Below are positions 6,538 through 52,603 of a stretch of 64,000 nt of DNA, one piece after another. Under the pieces are notes generated by a model. The model was not told the origin of the DNA. It made no database searches and saw only the letters and a program-made list of their open reading frames with translations. The stretch is from NCBI RefSeq assembly GCF_018771565.1, contig NZ_CP076326.1:868001-932000 (forward strand), given 5' to 3'. A program made the position numbers and the translations under genes. Every line of letters starts with the position of its first letter. Position 1 is the stretch's first letter. The stretch comes from Thermoflexus hugenholtzii. Lineage in GTDB: Bacteria; Chloroflexota; Anaerolineae; Thermoflexales; Thermoflexaceae.

Positions 6538-7451
6538 GCAAGGTGCGGGTGCCGCGGCGTCGCATCTCCTATCGGGATCACGGGGTGGTCATCGAGATCG
6601 CCCCTGACTATCAGCAGCTGGCGGAGCAGGCCGACGCCACCATCCGCCGGATCCTGGCGGATTATCCGCGGGCCGCTCGCCTCTATGAGCGCATCGTCCG
6701 GGATCCGCGGGCCTCGGCGTGCTGGGATCTTTCGAACTACATGGCCGTTTACAAGCTCAACTACAACGACCACGGGCCGGTCCACGCCCGGGTGGCCACG
6801 GCCGCGGCGATGCAGATGATGCAGCTGCTGGTGCGCCACGAGGTTCCCATGGATGTCGTGACGTCGGGGGCGGGCGAGCTGGACGACGCCTTCCTGGTGG
6901 TGATGGCGGCGGAGATGTTGCACGACATCGGGAACATGGTGCATCGGGTCGGGCACATCGAATATGGAGTGTTCCTGGCCGCCCAGCTGCTCTCCCGCTG
7001 GCTACCGGAGATCTACCCGGATCCTGAGCAGGAGCAGCTGATCGCCGGGTTCATCCTCTCGTGCATCGCCAGCCACGACGGCTCCCCGCCGCCGCTGACA
7101 GTGGAGGCTTCGGTGGTGGCCATCGCCGACGGCACGGATATGACCAAGGGGCGGGGGCGGGCGGCCTTCGATCTGGGGAAGGTGGACATCCACTCGGTGT
7201 CCGCGTTGGCCGTGGATGCGGTGGAGATCCGGGACGGAGGGGATCTGCCCATCGAGATCGCGGTCTACCTGAGCAACTCGGCGGGGATCTTCCAGGTTCA
7301 GGAGATCCTGGCCCGCAAGGTGGTGGTGACGCCGTTGAAGGATCGAGTGCGGATCGTGGTGTGCGCCCGCCCCGAGACGCCGCTGGTCGATCAGCGGATC
7401 ATCCAGAAGGTGGTCTTTGAGAACGGTCGCTTTCAGGTGGCCCAGGACTGA
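6534..7451 (+). CDS. HD-domain metal-dependent phosphohydrolase-like protein
   Basis: This 305-residue protein overlaps the mutS stop by 4 bp, so the two are probably co-translated. An HD-type metal site is suggested by three segments: NDHGPVHARV (about 81-90), MLHDIGNMVHRVGH (about 127-140) and SCIASHDGS (about 172-180). The N-terminal part is helical and the C-terminal 90 residues are predicted beta-rich. HD proteins hydrolyse nucleotides, cyclic dinucleotides or other phosphoesters; the substrate cannot be told from the sequence. No output or membrane domain is fused. A role in repair is suggested only by the mutS coupling. Confidence 0.75.
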   Translation: MSKVRVPRRRISYRDHGVVIEIAPDYQQLAEQADATIRRILADYPRAARLYERIVRDPRASACWDLSNYMAVYKLNYNDHGPVHARVATAAAMQMMQLLVRHEVPMDVVTSGAGELDDAFLVVMAAEMLHDIGNMVHRVGHIEYGVFLAAQLLSRWLPEIYPDPEQEQLIAGFILSCIASHDGSPPPLTVEASVVAIADGTDMTKGRGRAAFDLGKVDIHSVSALAVDAVEIRDGGDLPIEIAVYLSNSAGIFQVQEILARKVVVTPLKDRVRIVVCARPETPLVDQRIIQKVVFENGRFQVAQD

Positions 7452-7852
7452 AGACCTGTCCGGACGGCTCTGCTGTCCCCAGAGCGATGAGCGCGCCTGC
7501 AAACCTTCACGAGATGCAGGCCGCGGCTTGATCTTTGAGGCCGAAATTCATTTCGGACCGGGGCGCTCTCGCCCGGCCTCCCGAACCTTCGCTTTCGGTG
7601 GGTTCCCGTCTCGCCGCCGAAGCCGCGGCGGAAGCCGCTCCTATAAGGGGGGGCTCCGAGTTTTGCCTTCGCCCTTTGGGGCGTGGGCTCGGGGGCTTCG
7701 CTTTCGCGTCGGATCTTGGCGCGATAATGGATCCTCGTCCTCTCCTCCGAGCGCAACGGTTGCGATGGGTTCACCCGCCGCGCCGCCCTGGGCCCGGTGG
7801 CCCGGTTGTGGATCGCCCTCCGCGCGTGGTGGGCGGAACGCAGGCCGGGCGC
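7452..7852. repeat. Gene-free stretch with copies of a dispersed hairpin repeat
   Basis: No convincing gene is seen in these 401 nt. Two pieces match the hairpin family found at 27041-27110 and 59700-60167: an inverted repeat built on GCCGAAAT/ATTTCGG (7540-7557) and a CGCGGCGGAAGCCGCTCCTA unit (from 7624). Open frames here have no recognisable protein content. Confidence 0.6.
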
Positions 7853-8965
7853 TCAGGCCACTCCATCTGCTTCTCCATCGGCCACGGACGTATCATAGCG
7901 GGCGGCGAGGGCAGGCCACGCATAGGGCCGAAGGCCTTCCAGCCAGAAAGGGGACCGGCGGGTGGGGATCCCGGACCAGCTGGATATCGAACCCTTTCGT
8001 TCCGCCTCGATCCATTCCGCCAGTTCCCTCCCGTCTCGCCACGCGGACAATCCGGGCAACAGCTCCGCCAGCACGGACCCCTCGGGAACCCAGGGAGGGA
8101 TCCCTCGGGCGGCGAAGGTCATGGTCCGGATGGGGGAGCGGGTCTCCGGGTCCGTTTCCAGGAGGGCGTGGCTTCGAGCGGCCCAGCGGTCGACCTCAGG
8201 GTCCTCCGGGTGAAGGATCCCGAGCAGGCGAGCCCGAAGGGCGCGGGGGAGCCGCTCGAGGGCGCGGGCCGCTTGGGGCGGGTCTTCGCTCAGCGTGATC
8301 AGGCGGAAGTCGATCCCTTTCGCCGCCGCCGGCCCCATGGCGTCCACGAGGCGATCGAGGGCCTCCGGATCGCCTCGGAAGATCCAGAGGAACCATCCCG
8401 TGGCCTCGGGGGCCGTTCGCTGGGGAGGCGAGGGAGGGAAAGAGAAGCCGGGCGGGAGCGTGGCGGAGCGGGCTATCCCCATGGCGGCCGCGGCTGGATC
8501 GATGGCCTGTAGAGCAGTTAGGAAGCGCTGGCGGTGCCCCTCCGCGTTGAAGAGCAGACGATCTGCGGCGCGGGCGGACGACGTCTCCAGGGCCGCGCGG
8601 CTGGGATCCGATAAGCGCCGCCGCCCGAGCGCGCTGTCGTGCCAGTAGATCCAGAGGGGGATCCCCTCCAGAAGATCGACGGTCGCTTCCCGGAAGACGG
8701 CCACGTCCATCCCATCCAGGGCCAGGAGGAGGTGAGGGCGGCCGGCGGGCAGGCGGGTCGGATCGGGGGCGGCGGATCCGGTAAGGGCGCGGCGGACGCG
8801 GCGGGCGAGGGCCAGGGCTCGCTCCCGCCCGCGGGCGGGGTCGGGCGGGAGCGGATCCGGGGGGAGGGCGAGCCGGCGGATTCGGTGCCGGCTATGCTGG
8901 GCCCACCCCTCCGCCCAGGCCCGCCGCTCCCCCGTCCCGCAAGGATCCAGGATCCAGATCTCCAT
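7853..8965 (-). CDS. DUF3524 / tRNA-queuosine mannosyltransferase-like glycosyltransferase
   Basis: The N-terminus (MEIWILDPCGTGERRAWAEG, then WAQHSRHRIRRLALPP) resembles the DUF3524 domain, where similar text marks the GT-B N-domain of queuosine mannosyltransferase-like enzymes. IPLWIYWHDS near residue 125 matches the family's position of an LYFHEN-like motif. About 370 residues, with a second Rossmann-like half (about 190-300). An ATG at 8983 is also possible; 8965 was chosen because homologues start at this motif and GGGAAGAG precedes it. It stands alone and is divergent from nuoA. The motif differs from the classical one, so another acceptor is possible. Confidence 0.6.
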   Translation of the reverse strand: MEIWILDPCGTGERRAWAEGWAQHSRHRIRRLALPPDPLPPDPARGRERALALARRVRRALTGSAAPDPTRLPAGRPHLLLALDGMDVAVFREATVDLLEGIPLWIYWHDSALGRRRLSDPSRAALETSSARAADRLLFNAEGHRQRFLTALQAIDPAAAAMGIARSATLPPGFSFPPSPPQRTAPEATGWFLWIFRGDPEALDRLVDAMGPAAAKGIDFRLITLSEDPPQAARALERLPRALRARLLGILHPEDPEVDRWAARSHALLETDPETRSPIRTMTFAARGIPPWVPEGSVLAELLPGLSAWRDGRELAEWIEAERKGSISSWSGIPTRRSPFWLEGLRPYAWPALAARYDTSVADGEADGVA

Positions 8966-9187
8966 CGCTCTTCCCACCAGCACGAGGGGTTCGGTGATCC
9001 GAATTCCCAGTCGTCTCCCTTCGCCAGGGGGATGCCCTCAAACGAGGGCGGGCTGTTCGGATTCCCATAGCGGCTCACCGAGAGATCGTCGCCGGCGTCC
9101 CGGTGGATGGATCATCCGTCTGTTGCAGGTGGCCCCAGCCGTCCACGCTTCGATCCAGCCGGGATATCCGGGGAAGCGCGCGCGGCC

Positions 9188-9259: not shown

Positions 9260-9616
9260 GTGCTGTCGGCCTATGCGGTCGTCGCGTTGTATCTCTTGCT
9301 CTCCCTGGCCCTTCTGGGAGCCACCTTGCTCCTCTGGTGGGCGCTACGGCCCAAGAAGCCAAACCCCCTCAAGCTTGAGGCCTATGAATGCGGCGTACAG
9401 ACGGTCGGGGATACCTGGGTGCAGTTCCGCGCCCAGTATTACATCTTCGCCCTCATCTTCGTCCTCTTCGATGTGGAGGCGGTGTTCCTCTTCCCGTGGG
9501 CTGTGGCTTACAACCAGCTGGGTCTGTATGCCGTGATCGAGATGGCCCTCTTCCTGCTGCTGCTTCTAAGCGGCTTGCTGTATGCCTGGCGGAAGGGCGC
9601 GCTGGAGTGGGTGTGA
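9260..9616 (+). CDS. nuoA: NADH-quinone oxidoreductase subunit A
   Basis: NuoA is a three-helix subunit at the junction of the membrane arm and the quinone site of complex I. The conserved loop LEAYECGVQTVGDTW (about residues 39-53) and the acidic helix FDVEAVFLFPWA (about 71-82) are both present, and 118 residues is the normal length. The start is GTG, preceded by a strong GGGGGAGGGG ribosome site. It leads an eight-subunit cluster for the membrane arm, while nuoB, CD and I lie about 40 kb away. Confidence 0.96.
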   Translation: MLSAYAVVALYLLLSLALLGATLLLWWALRPKKPNPLKLEAYECGVQTVGDTWVQFRAQYYIFALIFVLFDVEAVFLFPWAVAYNQLGLYAVIEMALFLLLLLSGLLYAWRKGALEWV

Positions 9617-9663: not shown

Positions 9664-10875
9664 ATGGGACAGATCTACGATTTCATCTATAACCTGCTGC
9701 CCTATCTGGGGATGTGGCTGCATGGGTTCCTGCGGAGCCTGGGCCTCTCGGAGGAGGCCATGTTTCTGGTGGTGGGCCTGATCAAGGCGTTCCTGCTGGT
9801 CAACTTCGGCCTCATCGGGTTTGCCATCCTCACCTACGTGGAGCGCAAGATCGTCGCCCGCTTCCAGGACCGGCTGGGGCCGAACGTGGCGGGCCCGTAT
9901 GGGATCCTGCAGCCGGTGGCCGATGGGATCAAGCTGCTGACGAAAGAGGACACCATGCCGGCGGGGGCGGATCGCTGGGTTTACAACCTGGCGCCGCTGA
10001 TCATCGCCACATGCGCTCTGGCGCCGCTGGTGGTGATCCCCTTCGGCCCGGGGGCCATCGGGGCCGACCTCCACATCGGCGTCCTTTACGCTCTGGCGGT
10101 GGGGGCGGGGGCCCTGGTGGGGGTGCTGATGGCCGGTTGGGGCAGCAACAACAAATACGCCCTGTTGGGCGCCTTCCGGGCGGTGGCCCAGCTGATCAGC
10201 TATGAGATCCCCTCGGTGCTCAGCGTGGTCATCGTGGTCATGATCGCGGGGACCATGTCCACCGTGGGGATCGTGCAGGCCCAGGATGTGCCGTATCTCT
10301 TCGTGCTCCCCGTGGCGGCGCTGGTGTTCCTCCTCTCCGGCGTGGCGGAGGTGGGCCGCACGCCTTTCGATCTGCTGGAGGCCGAGTCGGAGATCGTGGC
10401 CGGCTTCCACATCGAATACAGCGGCATGAAGTTCGCCTTAGTCTTCCTGGGCGAGTTCGTCCACGCCCTGGTGGTCTCCGCCCTCTTCGCCGTCCTCTTC
10501 CTGGGCGGCTGGCGGGGGCCGTGGCTCCCACCTTATCTGTGGATGCTCATCAAGATGAGCGTAGGGATCTTCCTTTTCTTCTGGTTGCGGGCTACGCTTC
10601 CTCGGATTCGGATCGATCAGATGTTGAACCTGAACTGGAAGTTCCTGACGCCCCTCATGATCCTGAATCTGATCGGGGTGGCGCTGGTGGACAGGGGCCT
10701 GCGGGCGGCGGGGGTGAGCGGCGGGATGTGGGCGGCCGGTCTCTTCCTGTTCAATGTGGCGATGCTGATCGGGGCGCTGGCCCTGCCGGGGTATCTGGGG
10801 CGCCGGGCCCGGATGGCGGCGCTGGCAGCGGAGGCGGAAGCGGAAGCCGTTGAGGCCCCTGTGGCGGCGCATTGA
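9664..10875 (+). CDS. nuoH: NADH-quinone oxidoreductase subunit H
   Basis: NuoH anchors the peripheral arm and forms the quinone chamber entrance. Recognisable landmarks are YVERKIVARFQDRLGPNVAG (about 56-75), the glutamate-rich quinone-channel loop VAEVGRTPFDLLEAESEIVA (about 227-246) and the following GFHIEYSGMKFA. At 403 residues it is longer than many NuoH proteins; the extra length is an Ala/Glu-rich C-terminal tail. It lies 47 nt after nuoA. The ATG at 9664 follows a GCGCGAGGTCCGC stretch with a weak ribosome site. Confidence 0.96.
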   Translation: MGQIYDFIYNLLPYLGMWLHGFLRSLGLSEEAMFLVVGLIKAFLLVNFGLIGFAILTYVERKIVARFQDRLGPNVAGPYGILQPVADGIKLLTKEDTMPAGADRWVYNLAPLIIATCALAPLVVIPFGPGAIGADLHIGVLYALAVGAGALVGVLMAGWGSNNKYALLGAFRAVAQLISYEIPSVLSVVIVVMIAGTMSTVGIVQAQDVPYLFVLPVAALVFLLSGVAEVGRTPFDLLEAESEIVAGFHIEYSGMKFALVFLGEFVHALVVSALFAVLFLGGWRGPWLPPYLWMLIKMSVGIFLFFWLRATLPRIRIDQMLNLNWKFLTPLMILNLIGVALVDRGLRAAGVSGGMWAAGLFLFNVAMLIGALALPGYLGRRARMAALAAEAEAEAVEAPVAAH

Positions 10876-10944: not shown

Positions 10945-11445
10945 ATGACGCTGATCCAGGCGGTTTTCATCCTGTTTGCGGCCCTGACCCTGGGGGCGGG
11001 CCTGATGACCGTCCTCAGCCGGCATCTGTTTCACGCCGTGCTCTATCTGATCCTCTCGCTGGTGGGGGTGGCGGGCCTCTTCATCCTGCTGGAGGCAGAG
11101 TTCCTGGCCGGGGTGCAGGTCTTGATCTACATCGGGGCCATCTCCATTCTGATCATCTTCGCCGTCATGCTCACCCGGGGGATGGCCCGGAACCCGGGCC
11201 CGCCTTTGAACAACCAGAGCCTGGCCGCCGCGGTGATCGCCGGGCTCTTTTTCATCCTGCTGGCCCCGGTGCTGGCCGGGTTCCCATGGCCGACGGCTGC
11301 CTCCGGGGTGCCGGCGGACGCCATCGAGGCCCTGGGACGCTCCCTGGTGGACCCGAACCAGTTCGCCCTGCCCTTTGAGCTGGCCTCGGTGATGATCCTG
11401 GCGGCGCTGATCGGGGCGATCTTCATCGCCCGGGAGAAGCGTTGA
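10945..11445 (+). CDS. nuoJ: NADH-quinone oxidoreductase subunit J
   Basis: NuoJ is a five-helix subunit of the membrane arm. FHAVLYLILSLVGVAGLFIL (about 30-49), EFLAGVQVLIYIGAISILI (about 52-70) and FAVMLT are diagnostic. A second half with two further helices ends in IGAIFIAREKR. At 166 residues it has normal length. It sits between nuoH and nuoK without the nuoI that many bacteria have here; nuoI is in the second cluster at 51989. Confidence 0.95.
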   Translation: MTLIQAVFILFAALTLGAGLMTVLSRHLFHAVLYLILSLVGVAGLFILLEAEFLAGVQVLIYIGAISILIIFAVMLTRGMARNPGPPLNNQSLAAAVIAGLFFILLAPVLAGFPWPTAASGVPADAIEALGRSLVDPNQFALPFELASVMILAALIGAIFIAREKR

Positions 11446-11490
11446 GATCCCGGAGCCGGGCCTGATCTTCGCGCGGTGGAGGGCTTCCCG

Positions 11491-11799
11491 ATGATCCCCT
11501 TGACCTGGTATCTGCTGGTGGCAGCGGCGCTGTTCTGTATCGGCGTGTATGGGGTCCTGGCGCGGCGCAACGCCATCGCGATCCTGATGGCCATCGAGCT
11601 CATGCTCAACGCGGTGAACCTCAGCCTGGTCGCCTTCTGGCGCTACCTGCACCCGGAGCGAACGGTGGGGCAGGCCTTCGCCCTCTTCGTGCTGGTGGTG
11701 GCGGCGGCGGAGGCGGCCGCCGGCCTGGCGCTGATCATCAGCATCTACCGGAACCGCGAGACGGTCGACGTGGAGAACATCGACCTCCTCAGGGGTTAA
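11491..11799 (+). CDS. nuoK: NADH-quinone oxidoreductase subunit K
   Basis: NuoK is an Mrp-antiporter-related three-helix subunit with two buried glutamates. Here they appear in the segments [20 protein letters not shown] (Glu at about residue 36) and [19 protein letters not shown] (Glu at about 70-72). The product is 102 residues. The ATG at 11491 was chosen over an in-frame GTG at 11476 because GGTGGAGGG lies 7 nt upstream and homologues start at this position. Confidence 0.95.
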
Positions 11800-11818
11800 T
11801 CTCTCGAGGTGGATGGGA

Positions 11819-13963
11819 ATGGAGAACCAGGGGACGATCCTGGCGTTGTTGACGGCCCTCATCCCGTGGCCGCCGTTCATCGCCTTCGGGATGATCTCGC
11901 TCTTCGCGAACCGATGGAAGCGCCTCAGCCACACCCTCGCCATCGGCTCGGTGGCGATCTCCTTCGTCCTCTCCCAGGTGGTGTTCTGGAGCGCCCTCCG
12001 AATCGAGCACCTGGGGGAGCATCCCATCGCCGCCCGCATCCCCTGGCTGCCGGTGGGGGCGCGACCCCTGGAGTTCGGGGTGCTGGTGGATCCCCTGGGG
12101 GCGGTGATGCTTTTCATGGTCCCCCTGGTCTCGTTGATGATCTTCATCTACAGCGTGGGGTACATGGCAGGGGATCCCCACTACAGCCGATTCTTCGCGT
12201 TGCTCTCTTTGTTCGAGGCGGCGATGTTGCTGCTGGTGGTGGCGGACAACCTCTTGATGCTGTTCATCGGCTGGGAGGTGATGGGCTTCTGCTCCTACGC
12301 CCTCATCGGTTTCTGGTATCGCAAGCCCTCGGCCTACCGCGCCGCCGTGAAGGCTTTCATGACCACCCGGGTGGGCGATGTGTTGATGCTCCTGGGCATC
12401 GCCTACCTCTACGCTCAGACCGGCACCCTGAACTTTCACGACATTCTGCGGAACCCGGAGACTCTGAAGGTTCTGGCGGAGACGCCCTCTTATGTGGCCG
12501 GCCTCTCGGTGGCGGCCCTGGCCTCGCTGCTGCTGTTCGCCGGCACGGTGGGCAAGAGCGCCCAGTTCCCGCTGCACGTGTGGTTGCCCGACGCGATGGA
12601 GGGTCCCACCCCGGTCAGCGCGATGATCCACGCCGCGACCATGGTCTCGGCCGGCGTCTACACCACCATCCGGATGTTCCCGTTGCTTCAGGCGGGTCAG
12701 CACGGCTTGGGCGGGGAGACCGCCTTCTGGGTTGTGGCCCTGATCGGCGCCTTCACGGCCTTCATGGCGGCCACGATGGGCGTGGCGCAGAACGACATCA
12801 AGCGGGTGCTGGCTTATTCGACCATCTCCCAGCTGGGCTACATGCTGGCTGCGGTGGGGATCGGGGCCTACGTGGCCGCGGCCTTCCATCTGATCACCCA
12901 CGCCTTCTTCAAGGCGCTGCTCTTCCTGGGCTCCGGCTCGGTCATCCATGCGATGGAGCACGGGCACCATCACGCCGGCCACGGCCATAGCCATGAGGAG
13001 CCCTTCGATCCCAACGATATGCTGCAGATGGGTGGGCTGGCCCGGCGGATGCCGATAACCTTCTGGACCTTCCTGGCCGGCGGGCTGGCCCTGGCGGGCT
13101 TCCCGCTGATCACGGCCGGTTTCTGGAGCAAGGATGAGATCCTGGGGGAGGCCTTCCACGGGGCTTTCGAGAAAGGGGAGCTCCTGCCGCTGCTGGTTTT
13201 CCTGTTGCTGGCAACGGCCGCCGTCCTCACCGGCTTTTACACGATGCGCCAGATCGCCCTGACCTTCCTCGGGGAGCCTCGGTCCCCAGCCGCCGCTCAT
13301 GCGGCAGAGAGCCCGGCTTCCATGACCATGCCGTTGATCATCCTCGCTCTCTTCGCGGTCTTGGGAGGCTACGTGGGGGTGCCGGAGGGGTTCCCGGTTC
13401 TGGGCGCGCTGTTTGGGCAGAACTGGTTCCATGAATTCGTGGGCGGGACCCTCCTCGAGCATCCCGAGGCCCTGCCCTTCAACGCCGTCCCGGTCGTGCT
13501 TTCTTCCCTCATTGCGCTGACCGGGTTGGCCCTGGGCGGGCTGGTCTACGCCCGCCGTCCTTTGGCGGCAGGCGAGCCGGATCCTCTGGTTCGCCTGGGC
13601 CCCATCTACACCTTCCTTCGGAACCGCTGGTATATCGACGACCTCTACCATCGTGTCTTTGTCCAGCCGACCCTGTGGCTGGCCGAGCGGGCCGTGGCGT
13701 TCTTTATGGATCGGGTGGTGATCGATGGGTTCCTCCACGGCGTCGCCGATGCGGTCTGGTCGATGGGAGGCGCCCTGCGCCTCTTCGATCGGGTCGTGGT
13801 CAACGGCATCGGCGATGGGATCGGGGAGGCGGTGAAGGCCGCGGGCCGGGAGCTGCGGGCCCTGCAGACCGGCCTGGTTCAGAACTATCTGCTGGTGGTG
13901 GTGCTGGGGGTTCTGGGCTTCATCGTGCTTTACACGGTGGCGCCCATGTTGCGGGGGTTCTGA
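11819..13963 (+). CDS. nuoL: NADH-quinone oxidoreductase subunit L
   Basis: NuoL is the distal proton-pumping subunit with the long lateral helix. The pump motifs are intact: TVGKSAQFPLHVWLPDAMEG (channel lysine) and TPVSAMIHAATMVSAGVY. A His-rich loop (HGHHHAGHGHSHEE, about residues 381-394) interrupts the usual VIHA...MGGL segment. At 714 residues it is about 100 longer than the E. coli protein, with several segments between the core and the C-terminal lateral-helix region. ATG 11819 was chosen over 11813 because GAGGTGG then sits 6 nt upstream. Confidence 0.95.
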   Translation: MENQGTILALLTALIPWPPFIAFGMISLFANRWKRLSHTLAIGSVAISFVLSQVVFWSALRIEHLGEHPIAARIPWLPVGARPLEFGVLVDPLGAVMLFMVPLVSLMIFIYSVGYMAGDPHYSRFFALLSLFEAAMLLLVVADNLLMLFIGWEVMGFCSYALIGFWYRKPSAYRAAVKAFMTTRVGDVLMLLGIAYLYAQTGTLNFHDILRNPETLKVLAETPSYVAGLSVAALASLLLFAGTVGKSAQFPLHVWLPDAMEGPTPVSAMIHAATMVSAGVYTTIRMFPLLQAGQHGLGGETAFWVVALIGAFTAFMAATMGVAQNDIKRVLAYSTISQLGYMLAAVGIGAYVAAAFHLITHAFFKALLFLGSGSVIHAMEHGHHHAGHGHSHEEPFDPNDMLQMGGLARRMPITFWTFLAGGLALAGFPLITAGFWSKDEILGEAFHGAFEKGELLPLLVFLLLATAAVLTGFYTMRQIALTFLGEPRSPAAAHAAESPASMTMPLIILALFAVLGGYVGVPEGFPVLGALFGQNWFHEFVGGTLLEHPEALPFNAVPVVLSSLIALTGLALGGLVYARRPLAAGEPDPLVRLGPIYTFLRNRWYIDDLYHRVFVQPTLWLAERAVAFFMDRVVIDGFLHGVADAVWSMGGALRLFDRVVVNGIGDGIGEAVKAAGRELRALQTGLVQNYLLVVVLGVLGFIVLYTVAPMLRGF

Positions 13964-14005
13964 AGTCATGCCTGTGATCCTGAAGGCGGAAGGGGGAAGC
14001 CGGCG

Positions 14006-15550
14006 ATGACGCTCTTCGGGCAGCCGATCCCGATCCTCACTTTGATCACGTTCATCCCGTTGCTGGGGGCGGGACTCATCGCTCTGACGCCGCGGGACAG
14101 CGTCCGGCTGCAGCGCGGCCTGGCGCTGGCCTTCAGCCTGATCCCGCTGGCCCTCTCCATCTGGCTGTGGTTGAACTTCGACCGGAGCCGCCCGGGCTTC
14201 CAGTTCGTGGAGCGGGCGGTCTGGTTCCCCCAGGTGAACGCCAGCTACTTCCTCGGGGTGGATGGCCTGAGCGTGATGCTGATCTTCCTGACGGCGCTGC
14301 TCACGCCCCTGGGGGTCCTGGTCTCCTTTAACATCACGCAGGATCCCCGGACGTATTTCGCCCTCTTCCTGGCCCTGGAGACAGGGATCCTGGGGGTGTT
14401 CGTCAGCCTGGACCTTGTGCTCTTCTTCCTGTTCTGGGAGCTGGGCCTGGTGCCCATGTATTTCCTGATCAACAACTGGGGGGCACCGGAGCGGCGGCAT
14501 TACGCGGCCTTGAAGTTCATCCTCTACACGATGGCGGGGTCTCTGGGGCTTCTGCTGGGGATCCAGCTGATCTGGGCGGCCCTGGGGGGAACGCAGGGTG
14601 GGACCTTCGATTTGCTGGAGATCAGCCGGCGCTGGCCGACCCTTCAGGGCACCCTGGCGGGGGTTCCGATGGACGTGGTGAAGGCCATCGTCTTCTGGGC
14701 CTTCGTGATCGCTTTCGCCATTAAGGTGCCGGTCTGGCCCTTCCATACCTGGTTGCCGGACGCCCATACCGAGGCGCCCACTGCGGGCTCGATGATCCTG
14801 GCGGGGATCCTTCTGAAGCTGGGGGCCTATGGCTTCCTGCGCATCGTCTTCCCGCTGTTTCCGGCGGAATCCGCCCGGTTCGCCGTTGCCCTGGCCCTCC
14901 TGGCCACCGCGGCCATCGTCCTGGGCTCTTACGCGGCGCTGGGCCAGCGGGATTTCAAGCGGCTGGTGGCGTATTCTTCGGTGAACCACATGGGCTTTGT
15001 GGTGCTGGGGATCGCCGTGGCCGGCTACGCCCTGGGCAACCCGGCGGTGCGGGATCATGCGTTGATGGCGGTGAACGGGGCGGCGCTGCAGCTGTTTGCC
15101 CACGGCCTCTCCTCGGCGGCGATGTTCGCCCTGGTGGGGGTGGTTTACGATCGCACGCACACCCGGGATCTGGAGGCCTATGGGGGGCTGTGGACGCGGA
15201 TGCCCCGCTACGGTGGGGTGCTGATCTACTGCGCGATGGCCTCGGTGGGGCTGCCGGGCCTGGCGGGCTTCGTGGCGGAGTATATGGTGGTGCAGGGGGC
15301 CTGGCCGGTGTTCACCGCCCTCACAGCCCTCTCCATGCTCGGGCTGCTCATCACGGGCGCGTTCATTATGAAGGCCATCCAGAAGGTGTTGCATGGGCCG
15401 CTGAATCCTCAGTGGGCCCGATTGCCGGACATGGGCTGGCGGGAGCTGATCGCCGTGGCGCCGCTGATGGCTTTCATGTTGCTCACCGGCCTGTGGCCGG
15501 CCTGGATCGTGCCCACCCTGGACGCGGCCTTGCGCGGGCTGTTCGGATGA
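14006..15550 (+). CDS. nuoM: NADH-quinone oxidoreductase subunit M, first copy
   Basis: This is a 14-helix antiporter-like pump subunit of 514 residues. The TM5 glutamate is in LFFLFWELGLVPMYFLI, the TM7 lysine in FAIKVPVWPFHTWLPDAH and the TM8 lysine in GILLKLGAYGFLR, so the proton path looks complete. VAYSSVNHMGFVVLGIA marks the central axis. A second NuoM follows at 15909 after a small antitoxin-like gene. Two NuoM genes in one cluster are the mark of the described '2M' complex I variant. Confidence 0.95.
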   Translation: MTLFGQPIPILTLITFIPLLGAGLIALTPRDSVRLQRGLALAFSLIPLALSIWLWLNFDRSRPGFQFVERAVWFPQVNASYFLGVDGLSVMLIFLTALLTPLGVLVSFNITQDPRTYFALFLALETGILGVFVSLDLVLFFLFWELGLVPMYFLINNWGAPERRHYAALKFILYTMAGSLGLLLGIQLIWAALGGTQGGTFDLLEISRRWPTLQGTLAGVPMDVVKAIVFWAFVIAFAIKVPVWPFHTWLPDAHTEAPTAGSMILAGILLKLGAYGFLRIVFPLFPAESARFAVALALLATAAIVLGSYAALGQRDFKRLVAYSSVNHMGFVVLGIAVAGYALGNPAVRDHALMAVNGAALQLFAHGLSSAAMFALVGVVYDRTHTRDLEAYGGLWTRMPRYGGVLIYCAMASVGLPGLAGFVAEYMVVQGAWPVFTALTALSMLGLLITGAFIMKAIQKVLHGPLNPQWARLPDMGWRELIAVAPLMAFMLLTGLWPAWIVPTLDAALRGLFG

Positions 15551-15562
15551 AGGAGGCGCTTT

Positions 15563-15877
15563 ATGGAGATCCGGATCCGTGACTTGGTAGAAGCAGGCCT
15601 ATATAAGAGCGAAGAGAAGGTAATGGAGGAGGCGTTGCGCCTTTTGCTTCAGGATCGCCCACACTTGCGGGTGGCCTTGGCGGTGCATCGCTATCGAACG
15701 GATCCCGAGCTGACCCTGGCTCAAGCGGCTGCTATCGCCAGGGTCAGCGTTGAGAGCATGAAGGAAATCCTGGAGCGCTACGGCGTGCCCTTGCGCTTGG
15801 GAACTGCAGATCGCACGGAAGCCTTGGCCGAGATCCGAGCGTTGGAGGACTTCCTGAATGTCGGTGCGTGTTGTTGA
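15563..15877 (+). CDS. UPF0175-like small antitoxin between two nuoM genes
   Basis: The protein has 104 residues. The N-terminal 35 resemble a ribbon-helix-helix strand-helix (VEAGLYKSEEKVMEEALRLL). The middle looks like the UPF0175 helix-turn-helix (ELTLAQAAAIARVSVESMKE, then ERYGVPLRLG). UPF0175 proteins are usually encoded just before a DUF3368 PIN-like toxin. Only a 15-codon stub of such a partner follows (15858-15905). The gene has its own AGGAGG site 6 nt before the ATG and starts 12 nt after nuoM1 stops, so it should be co-transcribed with complex I. DNA binding or antitoxin function is inferred from family only. Confidence 0.7.
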   Translation: MEIRIRDLVEAGLYKSEEKVMEEALRLLLQDRPHLRVALAVHRYRTDPELTLAQAAAIARVSVESMKEILERYGVPLRLGTADRTEALAEIRALEDFLNVGACC

Positions 15878-15905
15878 ACGATCTACCCTCATCTTTGGAG
15901 CGTGA
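15858..15905 (+). pseudogene. Stub of a DUF3368/PIN-like toxin gene
   Basis: A 15-codon frame overlaps the end of the antitoxin-like gene: MSVRVVERSTLIFGA and stop. The text resembles the N-terminus of DUF3368 toxins (a VRVV strand, then an ST-LI segment of the catalytic start). The rest of the gene is absent and nuoM2 begins 3 nt later. A short match like this could be chance; position and overlap make it more likely a deletion remnant. Confidence 0.4.
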
Positions 15906-15908
15906 AGG

Positions 15909-17468
15909 ATGACGATCCCGGCGGTGACGCTTCCTATTCTCAGCTTCATTGTCTTCACGCCCCTGGTGGGGGCGCTCATCTTGTTGCTCATCCCGCGCCA
16001 TCAGAAGGAGGCGGCGCGGGTCTTTGCGGCCACGGTCTCCGGCTTCACGTTGCTGCTGGCCCTGTGGGCCTTTCTCGCCTACGACCGCTCGGCCGGCGGC
16101 TATCAGTTCGTGGAGCGGATCTCCTGGCTGCCCCAGCTGGGCATCCACTACTATGTGGGGGTGGACGGCGTCAGCCTGCCCCTGGTGCTGCTCTCCGCCC
16201 TGGTCCTCTTCACCGGCGTGCTGGTCTCGTGGAACATCGAGGACCGCCCCCACGAGCTGTTCGCTTTTATGTTGCTTCTGGCCAGCGGCATCATGGGGGT
16301 CTTCGTGGCCCGCAACCTGGTGTTGCTGTTCTTCTTCTACGAAATCGCGATCTTCCCCAAATACTTCCTGATCGCCATCTGGGGCTCCACCCGCAAGGAA
16401 TACGCGGCGATGAAGCTGGTGCTTTACACGCTGGTGGGGTCCATTATCGCCCTGGTGGGCGCCCTGGCCCTGTATTTTGTGTCCCCGGTGCGCACGTTCG
16501 ATATGGATGTGTTGCGCGAGCTGGCGGCTCGAGGGGCCTTCGCCCGGCCGGTGGAGGTGTTCGGCCAGACGGTGCGCTTTGATCACCTGTGGTTTCTTCC
16601 CGTCTTCTTGGGGTTCGCGGTCACCGCCGGTTTGTGGCCGTTCCATAACTGGGTGCCGGATGGACACTCGGCGGCTCCCACGGCGGGCTCGATGTTCCTG
16701 GCCGGAGTGGTGATGAAGGTGGGGGCCTACAGCGCCCTGCGGGTGGGGATCGAGCTGATGCCCGGCGGGGCGGTCTACTGGCTGCCGGTCGTGGTCTTCC
16801 TGGCGGTGGTCGCGGCCCTCTATTCGGCGGCCATCTCCCTGGTGCAAGAGGATCTCAAGTATGTGATCGCTTTCTCCAGCATTGGGCATATGGCTTTCGT
16901 AACCATCGGGTTTGCGGCGATGAACGTCACCGGGCTGACAGGGGCTGTGCTGCAGATGTTCTCCCACGGGGTGATGGCCGCCATCCTCTTCGCCGTGGTG
17001 GGGATGGTTTACGACCGGGCGCACACGCGTTATCTGGCCCACCTGGGCGGGTTCGCCCGGGCGATGCCGATGGCCACCCTGGGCTTCGTCCTGGGCGGCC
17101 TGGTGGCGATGGGGATGCCGGGCTTTTCCGGGTTCATCGCGGAGTTTCAGGTCTTCGCAGGGATCTGGGCGGCCCGGGACACCGCCTGGTGGTATCCTTG
17201 GGTGGCGATCCTCGCCGCGCCCAGCATCGCCCTCTCCGCCGCCTACATCCTGCGGGCGCTCCAGGCCACGTTCTTTGGGGAGCTGAACCGGGAGCGCTAC
17301 CCCCATGTGGGGGACGTGACCGTCCTGGATAAGGTGGCCATCGTCACGCTGGCGGTCTGGTTCGTCCTGATCGGAGTGTTCCCGCGGGTGATGACCGACC
17401 TGATCCAGACGGGAGTGGAGCCGATCGCGGCGCTGCTGCACGGGGCGATGCTGGCCTCCCTCCGTTGA
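15909..17468 (+). CDS. nuoM: NADH-quinone oxidoreductase subunit M, second copy
   Basis: This 519-residue NuoM paralogue keeps the TM5 glutamate (LLFFFYEIAIFPKYFLI) and the TM8 lysine (Lys270 in GVVMKVGAYSALR). The conserved TM7 lysine is replaced: where NuoM1 reads FAIKVPVWPFHTW, this copy reads FAVTAGLWPFHNW, with Thr239 at the lysine position. HSAAPTAGSMFLAG follows as expected. It sits between the antitoxin remnant and nuoN. With NuoM1 it would give a complex I carrying an extra antiporter-like subunit. Confidence 0.93.
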   Translation: MTIPAVTLPILSFIVFTPLVGALILLLIPRHQKEAARVFAATVSGFTLLLALWAFLAYDRSAGGYQFVERISWLPQLGIHYYVGVDGVSLPLVLLSALVLFTGVLVSWNIEDRPHELFAFMLLLASGIMGVFVARNLVLLFFFYEIAIFPKYFLIAIWGSTRKEYAAMKLVLYTLVGSIIALVGALALYFVSPVRTFDMDVLRELAARGAFARPVEVFGQTVRFDHLWFLPVFLGFAVTAGLWPFHNWVPDGHSAAPTAGSMFLAGVVMKVGAYSALRVGIELMPGGAVYWLPVVVFLAVVAALYSAAISLVQEDLKYVIAFSSIGHMAFVTIGFAAMNVTGLTGAVLQMFSHGVMAAILFAVVGMVYDRAHTRYLAHLGGFARAMPMATLGFVLGGLVAMGMPGFSGFIAEFQVFAGIWAARDTAWWYPWVAILAAPSIALSAAYILRALQATFFGELNRERYPHVGDVTVLDKVAIVTLAVWFVLIGVFPRVMTDLIQTGVEPIAALLHGAMLASLR

Positions 17469-17494
17469 GATCCGCTGATCCAGAGGAGGCATGG

Positions 17495-18949
17495 ATGAGC
17501 GAGCTGTCCTGGTGGGCGCATCTCTGGTCGGTCCTGCCGGAGATCGTGCTGGTGGTCGCGGCGGTCGTGACGATGGCCGCGGACGCCTGGCTGCCGGAGG
17601 GACGCAAGCGGGAGCTGGGCTACTGGGCCATCGGGGGGCTGGCCGTGGCCCTGGGGGTGACAGCGGTCCAGGCGGCACAGCTGGCCGGAGGGATGGCGGC
17701 CCCCTATGAAGCGTTCGGTGGATCCGTGCGAGCGGATCTTGCGGCGATGCTGTTCCGCCTGATCTTCCTGCTCGCAGGGATCCTCACGGTGGCGATCTCG
17801 ATGGATTTCCGCCCCCTGCGCCAGAGCGGCGAGTATTACACCCTCCTGCTCCTCTCGATCCTGGGGATGGGCCTGATGGGGGCGGCGGTCAACCTGGTGA
17901 CGTTGTATCTGGCCCTGGAGACGGTGGGGATCGCCCTGTATCTGCTGGCGGGATATCTGCGGGACACCCCGCGTTCCGCGGAGGCGGGGCTGAAGTATTT
18001 CCTGTTCGGGGTCTTCAGCTCCACGATCATGCTGTATGGCCTGGCCCTTCTGTATGGCTTCACCGGGGAGATCGCCTACGCCCGCATCGCCCAGGCCCTG
18101 GGAGCGCTGCCTTCTCCGGCGGTGATGGCGGCCCTCCTGCTGGTGCTGGTAGGGTTCGGCTTCAAGGTCTCCGCCGTGCCCTTCCATTTCTGGACCCCGG
18201 ATGTCTATGAGGGGGCGCCGACGCCGATCACCGCCTTCATCTCGGTGGCTTCCAAGGCGGCCGGGTTCGCCGTGCTCATCCGGGCGATGATCGAGGCCTT
18301 CCCCACGGTGCAGGGGAATTGGGTCGCCCTGATCTCGGCCCTGGCCTTCGTCACCATGACCGTGGGGAACCTCCTGGCGATCCCCCAGCGCAACCTCAAG
18401 CGGCTGCTGGCCTACTCGAGCATCGCTCAGGCCGGTTACATCCTGATCGGGGTGGCAGCGGCCAGCCCCCTGGGGATCGCCGCCTCGATCTTCTACCTGG
18501 GGATCTACACCTTGACCAACATCGCTGCCTTCGCCGTTGCGGTGATCATGACCAACGTAACGGGAAGCGAGGAGATCCGGGACCTGGCGGGGCTGTCCCG
18601 ACGTTCCCCCGGCCTGGCCCTGGCGATGCTGGCTGCCCTCCTCTCCCTGGGGGGAATCCCTCCGCTGGTCGGCTTCTTCGCCAAGCTGTTCGTGTTCGCC
18701 GCGGCCATCGAGAGCGGATTGCTCTGGCTGGCCATCGCCGGGGTGCTGAACGCCATGGTGGCGTTTTATTACTACATCATGGTGGCTCGGGCGATGTATG
18801 TGGACCGATCGCCCGAGGAAGGGAAGCCCGTGTGGATCTCCCGCCCGGCCCGTTTCACCTTGTGGTTCACCGTGGCGGGAGTGTTGTTGCTCACAGTGCT
18901 GGTCTATCCGCTTTACCAGCTGGCGCAGATGGCCGCCCAGGCCTTCTGA
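17495..18949 (+). CDS. nuoN: NADH-quinone oxidoreductase subunit N
   Basis: NuoN is the antiporter-like pump nearest the quinone module. The family signature is clear: VTLYLALETVGIALYLLAGY (TM5 glutamate), GFGFKVSAVPFHFWTPDVYE (TM7 lysine) and LLAYSSIAQAGYILIG. It has 484 residues from the ATG at 17495, which has GAGGAGG 6 nt upstream; an upstream in-frame start at 17465 lacks a site. It closes the first nuo cluster. A short inverted repeat (AGCCGG/CCGGCT) follows the stop but lacks a T-tract. Confidence 0.95.
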   Translation: MSELSWWAHLWSVLPEIVLVVAAVVTMAADAWLPEGRKRELGYWAIGGLAVALGVTAVQAAQLAGGMAAPYEAFGGSVRADLAAMLFRLIFLLAGILTVAISMDFRPLRQSGEYYTLLLLSILGMGLMGAAVNLVTLYLALETVGIALYLLAGYLRDTPRSAEAGLKYFLFGVFSSTIMLYGLALLYGFTGEIAYARIAQALGALPSPAVMAALLLVLVGFGFKVSAVPFHFWTPDVYEGAPTPITAFISVASKAAGFAVLIRAMIEAFPTVQGNWVALISALAFVTMTVGNLLAIPQRNLKRLLAYSSIAQAGYILIGVAAASPLGIAASIFYLGIYTLTNIAAFAVAVIMTNVTGSEEIRDLAGLSRRSPGLALAMLAALLSLGGIPPLVGFFAKLFVFAAAIESGLLWLAIAGVLNAMVAFYYYIMVARAMYVDRSPEEGKPVWISRPARFTLWFTVAGVLLLTVLVYPLYQLAQMAAQAF

Positions 18950-49222: not shown

Positions 49223-49433
49223 GGTGCGTTTCTATTGGGATGATGCGTATCCGATTGCGCAGGCGTTGCGGGCGGCCCATCCGGGCGTGGATCCCCTTTC
49301 GGTGGACTGGGACACGCTGCATCGGTGGGTGGTCGCCCTGCCGGGTTTCGCGGATGATCCGCGCCTGAAGGATCCGGTGCGGCTGGAGGAGATCCAGCGG
49401 GAATGGCTGGAGGAGGTGCTCGCCCATGGATGA
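49221..49433 (+). CDS. iscX: Fe-S assembly protein IscX
   Basis: A 70-residue acidic protein with the IscX pattern: [20 protein letters not shown] (about 5-24), [19 protein letters not shown] and [12 protein letters not shown]. IscX binds iron and IscS and tunes Fe-S cluster assembly. It overlaps nuoB by 8 nt and leads the operon for the Fe-S-containing complex I subunits. No Shine-Dalgarno sequence precedes the ATG; the mRNA may be leaderless, from ATG 49221 or GTG 49224. No iscS or iscU is nearby. Confidence 0.88.
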
Positions 49434-50106
49434 GCTGCGTGATCTGAACACCATGCCGGTCCCCTCTGAGCTCCGCAACAACGTGTTCGTCACCACCATT
49501 GACCGATTCGTGAGCTACATCTACAACTGGGGGCGCAAGCGATCGGTCTGGCCGATGATGTTCGGCCTCGCCTGCTGCGCCATCGAGATGATCTGCGCTG
49601 CGGCCAGTCGCTTCGACATCGCCCGCTTCGGCTCCGAGCTGATGCGCCCCAGCCCCCGGCAGGCGGACCTCATGATCGTTTCCGGCACCGTGACCAAGAA
49701 GATGGTTCCCCAGATCGTTCGCCTCTACAACCAGATGCCGGAGCCCAAATACGTGATCTCCATGGGCGCCTGCGCCACGGGCGGCGGCCCCTTCAAAGAG
49801 GGCTACAACGTGGTCTCCGGCATTGACAAGTTCATCCCGGTGGACGTGTATGTGCCGGGTTGTCCGCCGCGGCCGGAGGCCCTGTTGCACGGGCTCCTCA
49901 AACTCTACGCCAAGATCGAGCGCCAGTCCGTGCGGGAGGTTCCCTGGTATCAGAAAGGGGAATCCGAAGCCATCCCGGTGCCGATCCTGGGGCCGGATCT
50001 CATCGACCCCCGACGTCTGCCGGAGATCCGCGCCCGGCTGGCCGAGCTGCGCGCGCAGCAGGGAGGATCCCCGGAGGCTTCCGCGGGATCCGAGAAGGGC
50101 GCGTGA
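49426..50106 (+). CDS. nuoB: NADH-quinone oxidoreductase subunit B
   Basis: NuoB carries cluster N2 next to the quinone. [20 protein letters not shown] (about 46-65) gives the tandem cysteines, [17 protein letters not shown] the third, and [20 protein letters not shown] the fourth. 226 residues; the C-terminal 60 are an extension typical of longer NuoB proteins. It is the first core subunit of the second nuo cluster and lies 73-80 nt before nuoCD. Confidence 0.96.
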
Positions 50107-50185
50107 TGAGCCTCGGGAAACGTTGCGCGTGCGCAATGTCCATGGGATCCCTTTCGCCTGATCATGCCCTCCAGGGGAGGTGGGG

Positions 50186-51964
50186 ATGAGTGCGCCGACG
50201 AAGACGAAGGCGGCTCCGCTGGCGGAGCTGAAAGGCGATCTGGCAACCCTGAAGGAGCGTTTCGGCGACGCCGTCCAGCCCGCGGAATACGAGGGCGTGG
50301 TGATCGCCAACGACGTTCTGGTGGAGGCAGCCCGCTTCATCCGGGATGAGCTGGGCTACAGGTATCTCTCCAGCGTGACCGCGGTCGACTATATCGAGCA
50401 GGGCTATTTCGAGGTGGTCTACCACGCCTACCGCCTCGAGGGCGGCGGCCCCCTGGTGTTCAAAGCCCGGACCCCCCGGGATGTGGCCGCCGTGCCCTCC
50501 CTGGTCTCAGTGTGGCCAGGAGCGGATTTCCAGGAGCGGGAGGCCTGGGATCTGATGGGAATCCGTTTCGTCGGCCACCCGAACCTGAAGCGGATCCTGC
50601 TGTGGGAGGGATTCCACGGACATCCCCTGCGCAAGGACTGGAAGGAGCCTTACTACGAGGAGGAGCACAAGCCCTTCAGCAGCCGATGGCCTTCCGGCCA
50701 TCACGTGCGGGCGGAGGATCGGGTCCTCTGGCGCGACAACGTCCAGTATCCGCTGGACTGGGATCCCGACCAGGTCGAGGACACCTCCGACGAGCTGCTC
50801 TACATCGGCATGGGGCAGTTCGCCCGGGCGGACACGGGGGAGGTGGTGGAGCCGAAGACCCTGCGCACGGAGCGGCTGGTGGTCAACATGGGTCCCCAGC
50901 ATCCCAGCACCCACGGGGTCTTCCGCATGGTGGTCACCCTGGACGGGGAGACCATCGTGCGCCTGGAGCCGGTCATGGGCTACCTCCACCGCAACCATGA
51001 GAAGATCGGCGAGCGCAATATGTATCTCCAGAACATGCCCTACACGGACCGGCTCGACTACATCTGTTCGATGAGCAACAACCTGGGATACGCCATCGCC
51101 GTGGAGAAGCTGCTGGGGATCAAGCCCCCGGAGCGGGCGGAGTATCTGCGGGTGATCATGGCGGAGTTCACCCGGATCGTCAACCACCTCTGGGCCATCG
51201 GCTTCCTTCTGAACGACCTGGGGGCTTTCTTCACCCCCGCCCTCTACGCCATTGAAGAGCGGGAGCTGATCCTGGACCTCTTCGAGGAGGCCTCGGGGTC
51301 CCGGATGATGTGCAACTATATGCGCTTCGGCGGCGTGGCCCATGATGTCTCCGACGACTGGATCGCCCGGGCCAGGGAGCTGGTCTATAACCGTCTCCCC
51401 CGGGCCATCGAGGAGCTGGACCGCTACCTCACGCATAACGAGCTGATCAAAGCCCGCTGCCAGGGGGTAGGGGTGCTCCCGCCGGACCTGGCGGTGGCCT
51501 ACAGCACGGCGGGGCCGGTGCTGCGCGCCTCGGGGATCCCTTACGACGTGCGCCGGGCGGAGCCTTACAGCATCTACGATCGCTTCGACTTCGATGTGGC
51601 GGTCCGCTATAACGGAGACGTTTACGATCGCTACCTGATCCGCATCGACGAGATGTGGCAGTCCCTGCGCATCCTCCGCCAGGCCCTGGATCAGATCCCC
51701 AAGGGGGAGATCCAGGCGGGCAAGAAGCAGTATATGATCCGCGTGCCCGCCGGGCAGGCCTACGGGCGGGTGGAGAACCCGAAGGGGGAGCTGGGCTTCT
51801 ACCTCGTCAGCGACGGCAGCCCCAACCCCTACCGCTATCACATCCGGGCGCCGTCCTTCATCAACCTCACCGCTCTGAACGAGATGTGCAAGGGCCACAA
51901 AGTGGCCGACGTGGTGGTCATCCTGGGCAGCATCGACATCGTGCTGGGAGAGGTCGACCGTTAG
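50186..51964 (+). CDS. nuoCD: NADH-quinone oxidoreductase subunit C/D fusion
   Basis: Residues about 1-185 are NuoC ([60 protein letters not shown]). Residues about 225-592 are NuoD ([20 protein letters not shown], then [16 protein letters not shown], and [20 protein letters not shown]). The fused form is known from enterobacteria and others. NuoD forms the quinone site with NuoB. ATG 50186 has GGGGAGG 5 nt upstream; an in-frame GTG at 50180 is less likely. The end, [12 protein letters not shown], is standard for NuoD. Confidence 0.95.
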
Positions 51965-51988
51965 CCTGCAAGCGGGAGGCGACGCGCG

Positions 51989-52603
51989 ATGATCTACGGT
52001 CTCGGCATCCTCAAGGGCCTCGGCGTCACGCTGAAGCATTTCATCTACTCCTATCTCGAGGACGTCCGCTATCTCTTCGAGGGCGGGCGTTATCAGCCGC
52101 GCCATCTCCCGGCCCGCCAGGGCCCGCGGGCCCGTGGCGTGTTCACCGTTCAGTATCCGAAGGAAAAGCTGCCGCTGCCCGAGAACTTCCGCTACATCCC
52201 CTTCCTGGTCTACGACACCCAGGAGAACAAGATCAAGTGCACCTCCTGCGGGATCTGCGCCAAGGTTTGCCCGCCCCAGTGCATCTGGATCGTGCGGGGC
52301 ACGGACCCCCAGACCGGTCGCCCGAAGCCGGAGCCGGAGGCCTTCTACATCGACGCCACCATCTGCATGTCCTGCGGCTTCTGCGCCGAGTTTTGCCCCT
52401 TCGATGCGATCAAGATGGACCACGATTATGAGCTCTCCGCTTACGAGCGCTACGAATCGTTGCTCTTCGATCTGCCGCGCCTGCTGAAGCCCGACACCTA
52501 TCATGCCCGGATCCATCCCTCGGACTGGGCGCGGGAGATAGCGGAGAAGGAGGCGGAGAAAGCGAAGAAGGGGGAGAAGGCGGCAGCCCATGCCTCCTCC
52601 TGA
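51989..52603 (+). CDS. nuoI: NADH-quinone oxidoreductase subunit I
   Basis: NuoI carries two [4Fe-4S] clusters that pass electrons to NuoB. Both motifs are complete: CTSCGICAKVCPPQCIWI (about 81-98) and CMSCGFCAEFCPFDAIKMDH (about 123-142). The N-terminal amphipathic helix (ILKGLGVTLKHFIY) is typical. 204 residues with a Lys/Glu-rich tail of about 35. A nucleotidyltransferase gene starts 24 nt later. No nuoE, F or G follows. Confidence 0.95.
   Translation: MIYGLGILKGLGVTLKHFIYSYLEDVRYLFEGGRYQPRHLPARQGPRARGVFTVQYPKEKLPLPENFRYIPFLVYDTQENKIKCTSCGICAKVCPPQCIWIVRGTDPQTGRPKPEPEAFYIDATICMSCGFCAEFCPFDAIKMDHDYELSAYERYESLLFDLPRLLKPDTYHARIHPSDWAREIAEKEAEKAKKGEKAAAHASS

Follow-up and report, generated by a model that had tools for sequence, protein, structure and literature searches.

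The second NuoM (NuoM2) of a complex I operon in Thermoflexus hugenholtzii lacks the lysine of transmembrane helix 7 (TM7), a residue that the literature treats as essential and absolutely conserved among antiporter-like subunits (PMC7419157; PMC9802314), and belongs to a clade of Chloroflexota NuoM proteins from which this lysine is missing throughout. Every sampled member of the clade carries one, and only one, of two basic residues that are absent from lysine-bearing NuoM: a histidine on TM8 or a lysine on TM5. Taking the evidence as a whole, we cautiously favour the explanation that the ionisable partner has moved into the pocket of the histidine switch of homologous subunits, and that pumping has been kept with altered gating.

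A NuoM without the TM7 lysine in a two-NuoM operon

The window is the whole 64,000-nucleotide stretch of T. hugenholtzii DNA that was analysed (C1:868001-932000 in the genome); all coordinates refer to it and all features lie on the + strand. The genes nuoA (9260..9616; PF00507, 126.5 bits), nuoH (9664..10875; PF00146, 383.7 bits), nuoJ (10945..11445; PF00499) and nuoK (11476..11799; PF00420) are followed by nuoL (11813..13963; 716 aa; TIGR01974, 622.8 bits), a canonical nuoM1 whose alignment places the TM7 lysine at Lys240 (14006..15550; TIGR01972, 510.7 bits), nuoM2 (15909..17468) and nuoN (17465..18949, with a likely start at the ATG at 17495; TIGR01770, 410.3 bits). Two nuoM genes stand between nuoL and nuoN (11813-18949), which is the gene order of 2M complex I. 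Further genes of the same complex lie 30 kb away, namely nuoB (49426..50106; NF011394, 314.2 bits), a fused nuoCD (50180..51964; TIGR01962 and TIGR01961) and nuoI (51989..52603), whose best family, TIGR01971, scores 91.9 bits, under the cutoff of 113. A small ORF between nuoM1 and nuoM2 (15563-15877) resembles UPF0175 (27.7 bits, cutoff 27.9) and ParD-type antitoxins; where it was measured in other Thermoflexus, the gap between the two genes spans just 47-222 bp, and in one close relative (L118) it is 831 bp and holds a similar ORF.

NuoM2 scores 466.3 bits against the NuoM profile (NDH_I_M, TIGR01972; curated cutoff 263.8), and a Foldseek search with its AlphaFold2 model (pLDDT 94.3, pTM 0.94) ranks Paracoccus denitrificans NuoM (8qby_M) first, with TM scores of 0.90/0.93, as for an antiporter-like fold. 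The TM5 glutamate (Glu145, 16341..16343), which is Glu in all aligned NuoM but one (Asp), the TM8 lysine identified by alignment (Lys270, 16716..16718) and the TM12 terminal glutamate (Glu412, 17142..17144), invariant in both a 288-sequence alignment and alignment A1, are all kept. The TM7 stretch of NuoM2, FAVTAGLWPFHNW, aligns without gaps to that of NuoM1, FAIKVPVWPFHTW, and places Thr239 of NuoM2 at the lysine position. Its codon is ACC (16623..16625, within the interval 16618-16626), and the model puts residue 239 in the TM7 break, between helices 224-237 and 248-255. The first-pass annotation had been exact on these points: threonine stands where NuoM1 and E. coli NuoM have the lysine, and the TM5 glutamate and the TM8 lysine remain, the latter 31 residues after Thr239. 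NuoM2 is thus a NuoM by profile and fold and part of a 2M complex I by its operon and by the NuoL insertion described below. Since it lacks one feature regarded as defining the proton channel, the TM7 lysine, we refer to it as a lysine-less NuoM variant; that its working may resemble that of a canonical pump subunit is a separate claim.

The threonine is not an error. The window proteins share 95-97% protein identity with Thermoflexus records, and Thr239 is present in 9/9 distinct Thermoflexus NuoM2 proteins. Among the seven Thermoflexus NuoM2 compared as DNA, its codon is ACC, ACG or ACA by species, and dN/dS against the window NuoM2 is 0.020-0.045, which shows strong purifying selection on Thermoflexus NuoM2. 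Unanimous threonine, synonymous codon variation and low dN/dS together exclude a point mutation, an assembly error or a pseudogene. An earlier suggestion was that lysine in all close homologues would imply such an accident; lysine occurs in 0/245 members of the NuoM2-type clade.

The TM7 lysine is absent throughout a Chloroflexota clade

We examined 444 unique NuoM proteins from Chloroflexota loci. At residue 239 these have Lys (199), Leu (236) or Thr (9) and no other state; since the set was drawn by similarity to the window NuoM2, the frequencies are meaningless and the absence of other states is meaningful. The 245 lysine-less proteins form one clade (support 100/100 on 48 representatives and 100 on 140) with Leu in 236, Thr in 9 and Lys in none, and the lysine is present in 199/199 of the remaining NuoM. 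In one cross-phylum scan, the best 80 of 401 places were all in Chloroflexota; a scan of viral contigs found no relatives, and a plasmid scan returned rhizobial and other NuoM at <40% identity. Because the aligned NuoL and NuoN also carry the TM7 lysine, as do MrpA and MrpD according to the literature, its absence is the derived state. Leucine preceded threonine: L015, which the tree places as sister to Thermoflexus, has Leu239 together with His264. Thr239 is specific to Thermoflexus and superimposed on an older change from lysine to leucine. The proposal that threonine might be conserved in the NuoM2 of other 2M enzymes therefore held only in part: the absence of lysine is conserved across Chloroflexota NuoM2, but threonine is confined to Thermoflexus and leucine is the rule.

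Other positions changed along with the lysine. Relative to canonical NuoM, the clade has Pro241 replaced by Gly, Glu255 by Ala and Arg/Lys318 by Tyr or Phe, and the TM4 glutamate (residue 125), 92% conserved in canonical NuoM, is replaced, mostly by Ala. Val249 of NuoM2 (16653..16655) aligns with the N-side gate leucine, L242 of P. denitrificans, where the L242A substitution abolishes activity (PMC9802314); residue 249 is Leu in 198/199 lysine-bearing NuoM and Ser (186), Ala (50) or Val (9) in the lysine-less ones. With the TM4 glutamate and the gate leucine both replaced, the channel may have been remodelled to serve some other function. At residue 253, the histidine of the uptake channel (H246 of P. 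denitrificans, where H246F abolishes activity, PMC9802314) is kept in 223/245 lysine-less NuoM and is Tyr in the other 22. The TM8 lysine, which is partly replaceable in P. denitrificans (PMC9802314), is at 270 in 223 members and at 269 in 22; the latter (e.g., L140, L160, L177, L179, L200, L238, L240, L242 and L243) have Asn or Ala at 270 and always Tyr rather than His at 253. Few members depart from the axis residues His327, His353 and Glu412. In 15 lysine-less NuoM, His353 is replaced by Gly, always together with Glu349, apparently another relocation of an ionisable residue.

Lysine-less NuoM as second or sole NuoM

The lysine-less protein is the M2 of nuoL-M1-M2-N in Thermoflexus, in Anaerolineae and in most other sampled lineages. 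In eight sampled loci (L158, L159, L161, L162, L166, L167, L170 and L173), it is the sole NuoM between nuoL and nuoN, and those of them sampled in the tree form the first-branching group of the lysine-less clade (99/97). A lateral-helix insertion in NuoL has been described for two-NuoM and related complexes (PMC9040806). By comparison of NuoL sequences, the window NuoL carries this insertion as 26 residues (640-665; 13730..13807), and it is found in 28/28 two-NuoM operons compared (the window and 27 others), in 0/8 operons with a single lysine-less NuoM, and is missing from 12/14 with a single canonical one. Two further loci, L176 (about 6488-9052) and L183 (about 6454-8439), have a NuoL with the insertion and only one nuoM seen. 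Gene order and sequence together suggest that the window complex carries the feature that has been published as marking complexes with a fourth antiporter-like subunit, and that a lysine-less NuoM can also take the ordinary NuoM slot. The operon and the NuoL insertion further point to both NuoM being in one assembled complex. The first-pass annotation had referred to NuoM2 as the extra subunit; the idea that the lysine-less type is only that does not survive the eight operons in which it is the sole NuoM and NuoL has no insertion.

The window two-NuoM complex has no nuoF of its own beside nuoB, nuoCD and nuoI (49426-52603). The genome encodes one NuoF, as part of another complex I of the canonical kind (G000:C1:64953-80149), and NuoF likewise accompanies the canonical rather than the lysine-less cluster in several other genomes checked (G270 and G259 are among the ambiguous cases). 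Possible electron inputs to the window complex are shared NuoEFG or ferredoxin.

Two mutually exclusive basic residues

Without exception, the 245 lysine-less NuoM carry just one of two residues, His264 (186) or Lys151 (59); no member combines the two or lacks both, and neither residue occurs in any of the 199 lysine-bearing NuoM. In the window protein the pair reads Lys151 on TM5 (16359..16361) and Leu264 on TM8 (16698..16700). Perfect exclusion of basic residues is seen in 4/2775 column pairs, 151/264 among them; two others, 269/270 and 253/269, lie in the same pocket region. Lys151 is carried by all 9 Thermoflexus and by 50 sequences grouping with f5, a family in the class to which the window belongs. 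The NuoM2 of the f5 group (e.g., L137, L141) also have Glu268 on TM8, near Lys270, in 50/50 sequences.

A single origin of Lys151, with its carriers as one clade, was rejected at p-AU 0.008 with the trait columns left out, though Thermoflexus sits on a long branch; the swap from His264 to Lys151 has thus happened at least twice. If changes were placed at random by branch length, two Lys151 gains and two His264 losses would fall on the same two branches with a chance of ~5e-4, a post hoc figure that assumes independence, for a pattern that was spotted after the fact and comprises two events. The first-pass annotation had named a replacing lysine nearby in structure as an observation that would undo its reading, and Lys151 is a strong candidate for such a replacement, being present in all Thermoflexus NuoM2 and in 0/199 lysine-bearing NuoM, while relatives have His264 instead.

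Both sites can be placed by homology. Residue 264 aligns with NuoL His254 and MrpA His248, and residue 151 (Glu145+6) with NuoL Ser150 (Glu144+6) and MrpA Ser146. In the 2.2 A structure of an Mrp antiporter, MrpA His248 alternates between two states, one with Thr306 and one hydrogen-bonded to Ser146, and in the latter waters link it to the Glu140/Lys223 pair (PMC9568556); the same histidine switch has been proposed for NuoL (PMC13358369). Sites 151 and 264 of lysine-less NuoM therefore align with residues that are hydrogen-bond partners in a homologue, next to its Lys-Glu pair, and the MrpA and NuoL structures suggest that the two residues meet in space in NuoM2. The spacing on TM8 also agrees, MrpA His248 and Lys254 forming the same H-x5-K as His264 and Lys270. 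Because the histidine of MrpA is linked to the Lys-Glu pair by a chain of waters and not directly, the new residue would be displaced from the old lysine site. The pKa of histidine is very different from that of lysine, which counts against His264 as a stand-in.

Discussion

The sequence states, the clade, the mutual exclusion, the two independent swaps, the gene order and the NuoL insertion are what the data show, and the following history would account for them. A single replacement of the TM7 lysine by leucine would have taken place in the common ancestor of lysine-less NuoM; along the same stem, a histidine would have been gained on TM8 at the NuoL/MrpA switch place while the NuoM-type TM8 lysine was kept. 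Later, in two lineages, one of them Thermoflexus, His264 would have reverted to Leu and Lys151 appeared on TM5, so that the protonatable partner near Glu145 was relocated rather than simply lost. The relocated group may stand in for the TM7 lysine by tuning Glu145 and handing charge on to Lys270, and NuoM2 would still take up and release protons through an N-side channel that is gated differently. With its protonatable group relocated in this way, NuoM2 probably still moves protons, by altered chemistry. The broader claim, that the whole subfamily pumps without the TM7 lysine by means of His (TM8) or Lys (TM5) in the histidine-switch pocket, we regard as evenly poised.

The main rival to relocation holds that lysine-less NuoM has no N-side to P-side transfer of its own and only relays charge, or a conformational signal, down the hydrophilic axis, in which case a two-NuoM complex would pump no more than a normal one. 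Mutants give it some force: P. denitrificans complex I with the NuoM substitution K232Q is catalytically inactive (PMC9802314), and function is also lost when K234 is mutated in E. coli (PMC3046159). The lysine-less proteins have replaced the gate leucine too, where alanine inactivates the P. denitrificans enzyme, and a relay would depend on the conserved axis residues all the same. We nevertheless think it less likely than relocation, given that the uptake-channel histidine, essential in P. denitrificans, is kept in most members, that an ionisable residue is resupplied in every lysine-less NuoM and that eight operons have no NuoM of any other type. Of the alternatives raised in the first-pass annotation, pumping differently fares best: the absence of the lysine is conserved, and the subunit probably works differently; not pumping, or only transmitting coupling, is possible and is not favoured, because of the candidate replacement and the eight sole-NuoM operons.

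A change of ion is harder still to credit. The MrpA-like TM8, with its His and Lys six apart, could mark movement of Na+ or K+, or their exchange for protons, but MrpA keeps its TM7 lysine, the Mrp sodium path uses residues of the MrpA C-terminal part, MrpC and MrpF that are absent from NuoM (PMC9568556), and Thermoflexus itself has lost the histidine. Least of all do we credit decay, i.e., a duplicated NuoM drifting to loss of function, or an accidental mutation or assembly error. The missing residue alone would suggest it, but dN/dS of 0.02-0.05, threonine codons that vary synonymously and an old clade of 245 sequences that retain the other axis residues already refute it, and we give it next to no weight.

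If the whole subfamily does pump in this way, a proton channel believed to allow a single chemical solution would have a second. For P. denitrificans NuoM, the Glu-Lys pair of TM5 and TM7 is indispensable (PMC9802314), and a natural clade without the lysine, sometimes as sole NuoM, suggests that this residue is dispensable once the surrounding pocket is rebuilt; one replacement ionisable residue in every member suggests that it was replaced rather than simply lost. The paired substitutions name the sites to change in a model enzyme, so that both the function of the Lys-Glu pair and the fifth proton claimed for two-NuoM complexes become directly testable.

The founding paper on 2M complex I is reportedly that of Chadwick et al., 2018, in ISME J (doi 10.1038/s41396-018-0210-1). 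The window complex agrees with this type in having two nuoM between nuoL and nuoN, a fused nuoCD, nuoB and nuoI apart from the main operon and the 26-residue NuoL insertion, and the order nuoL-M1-M2-N has been described in Chloroflexi (PMC7117926). The papers on 2M complex I that were consulted take the extra subunit as a fifth-proton pump and do not mention loss of the TM7 lysine; a literature search of limited wording found no earlier report of a lysine-less NuoM. Extra antiporter-like subunits are also common to Green complex I of rhizobia and Complex_I_3 of Ca. Manganitrophaceae, whose extra units include MrpD-like subunits, unlike the window complex (PMC9040806).

With canonical NuoM/ND4 of E. 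coli and P. denitrificans, lysine-less NuoM shares the fold, the TM5 Glu, the TM8 Lys, the two axis His and the TM12 Glu; it differs in having no TM7 Lys (no canonical pairing with the TM5 Glu in 245/245), no TM4 Glu and no gate Leu, and in its extra Lys151 or His264. Compared with the NuoL/ND5 and MrpA switch, most lysine-less NuoM (186/245) have the TM8 His at the same aligned place, and the Lys151 site is that of the histidine's TM5 hydrogen-bond partner, whereas the TM7 lysine and a Ser on TM5 are both present in NuoL and MrpA, and Thermoflexus NuoM2, with Leu264, is without the His.
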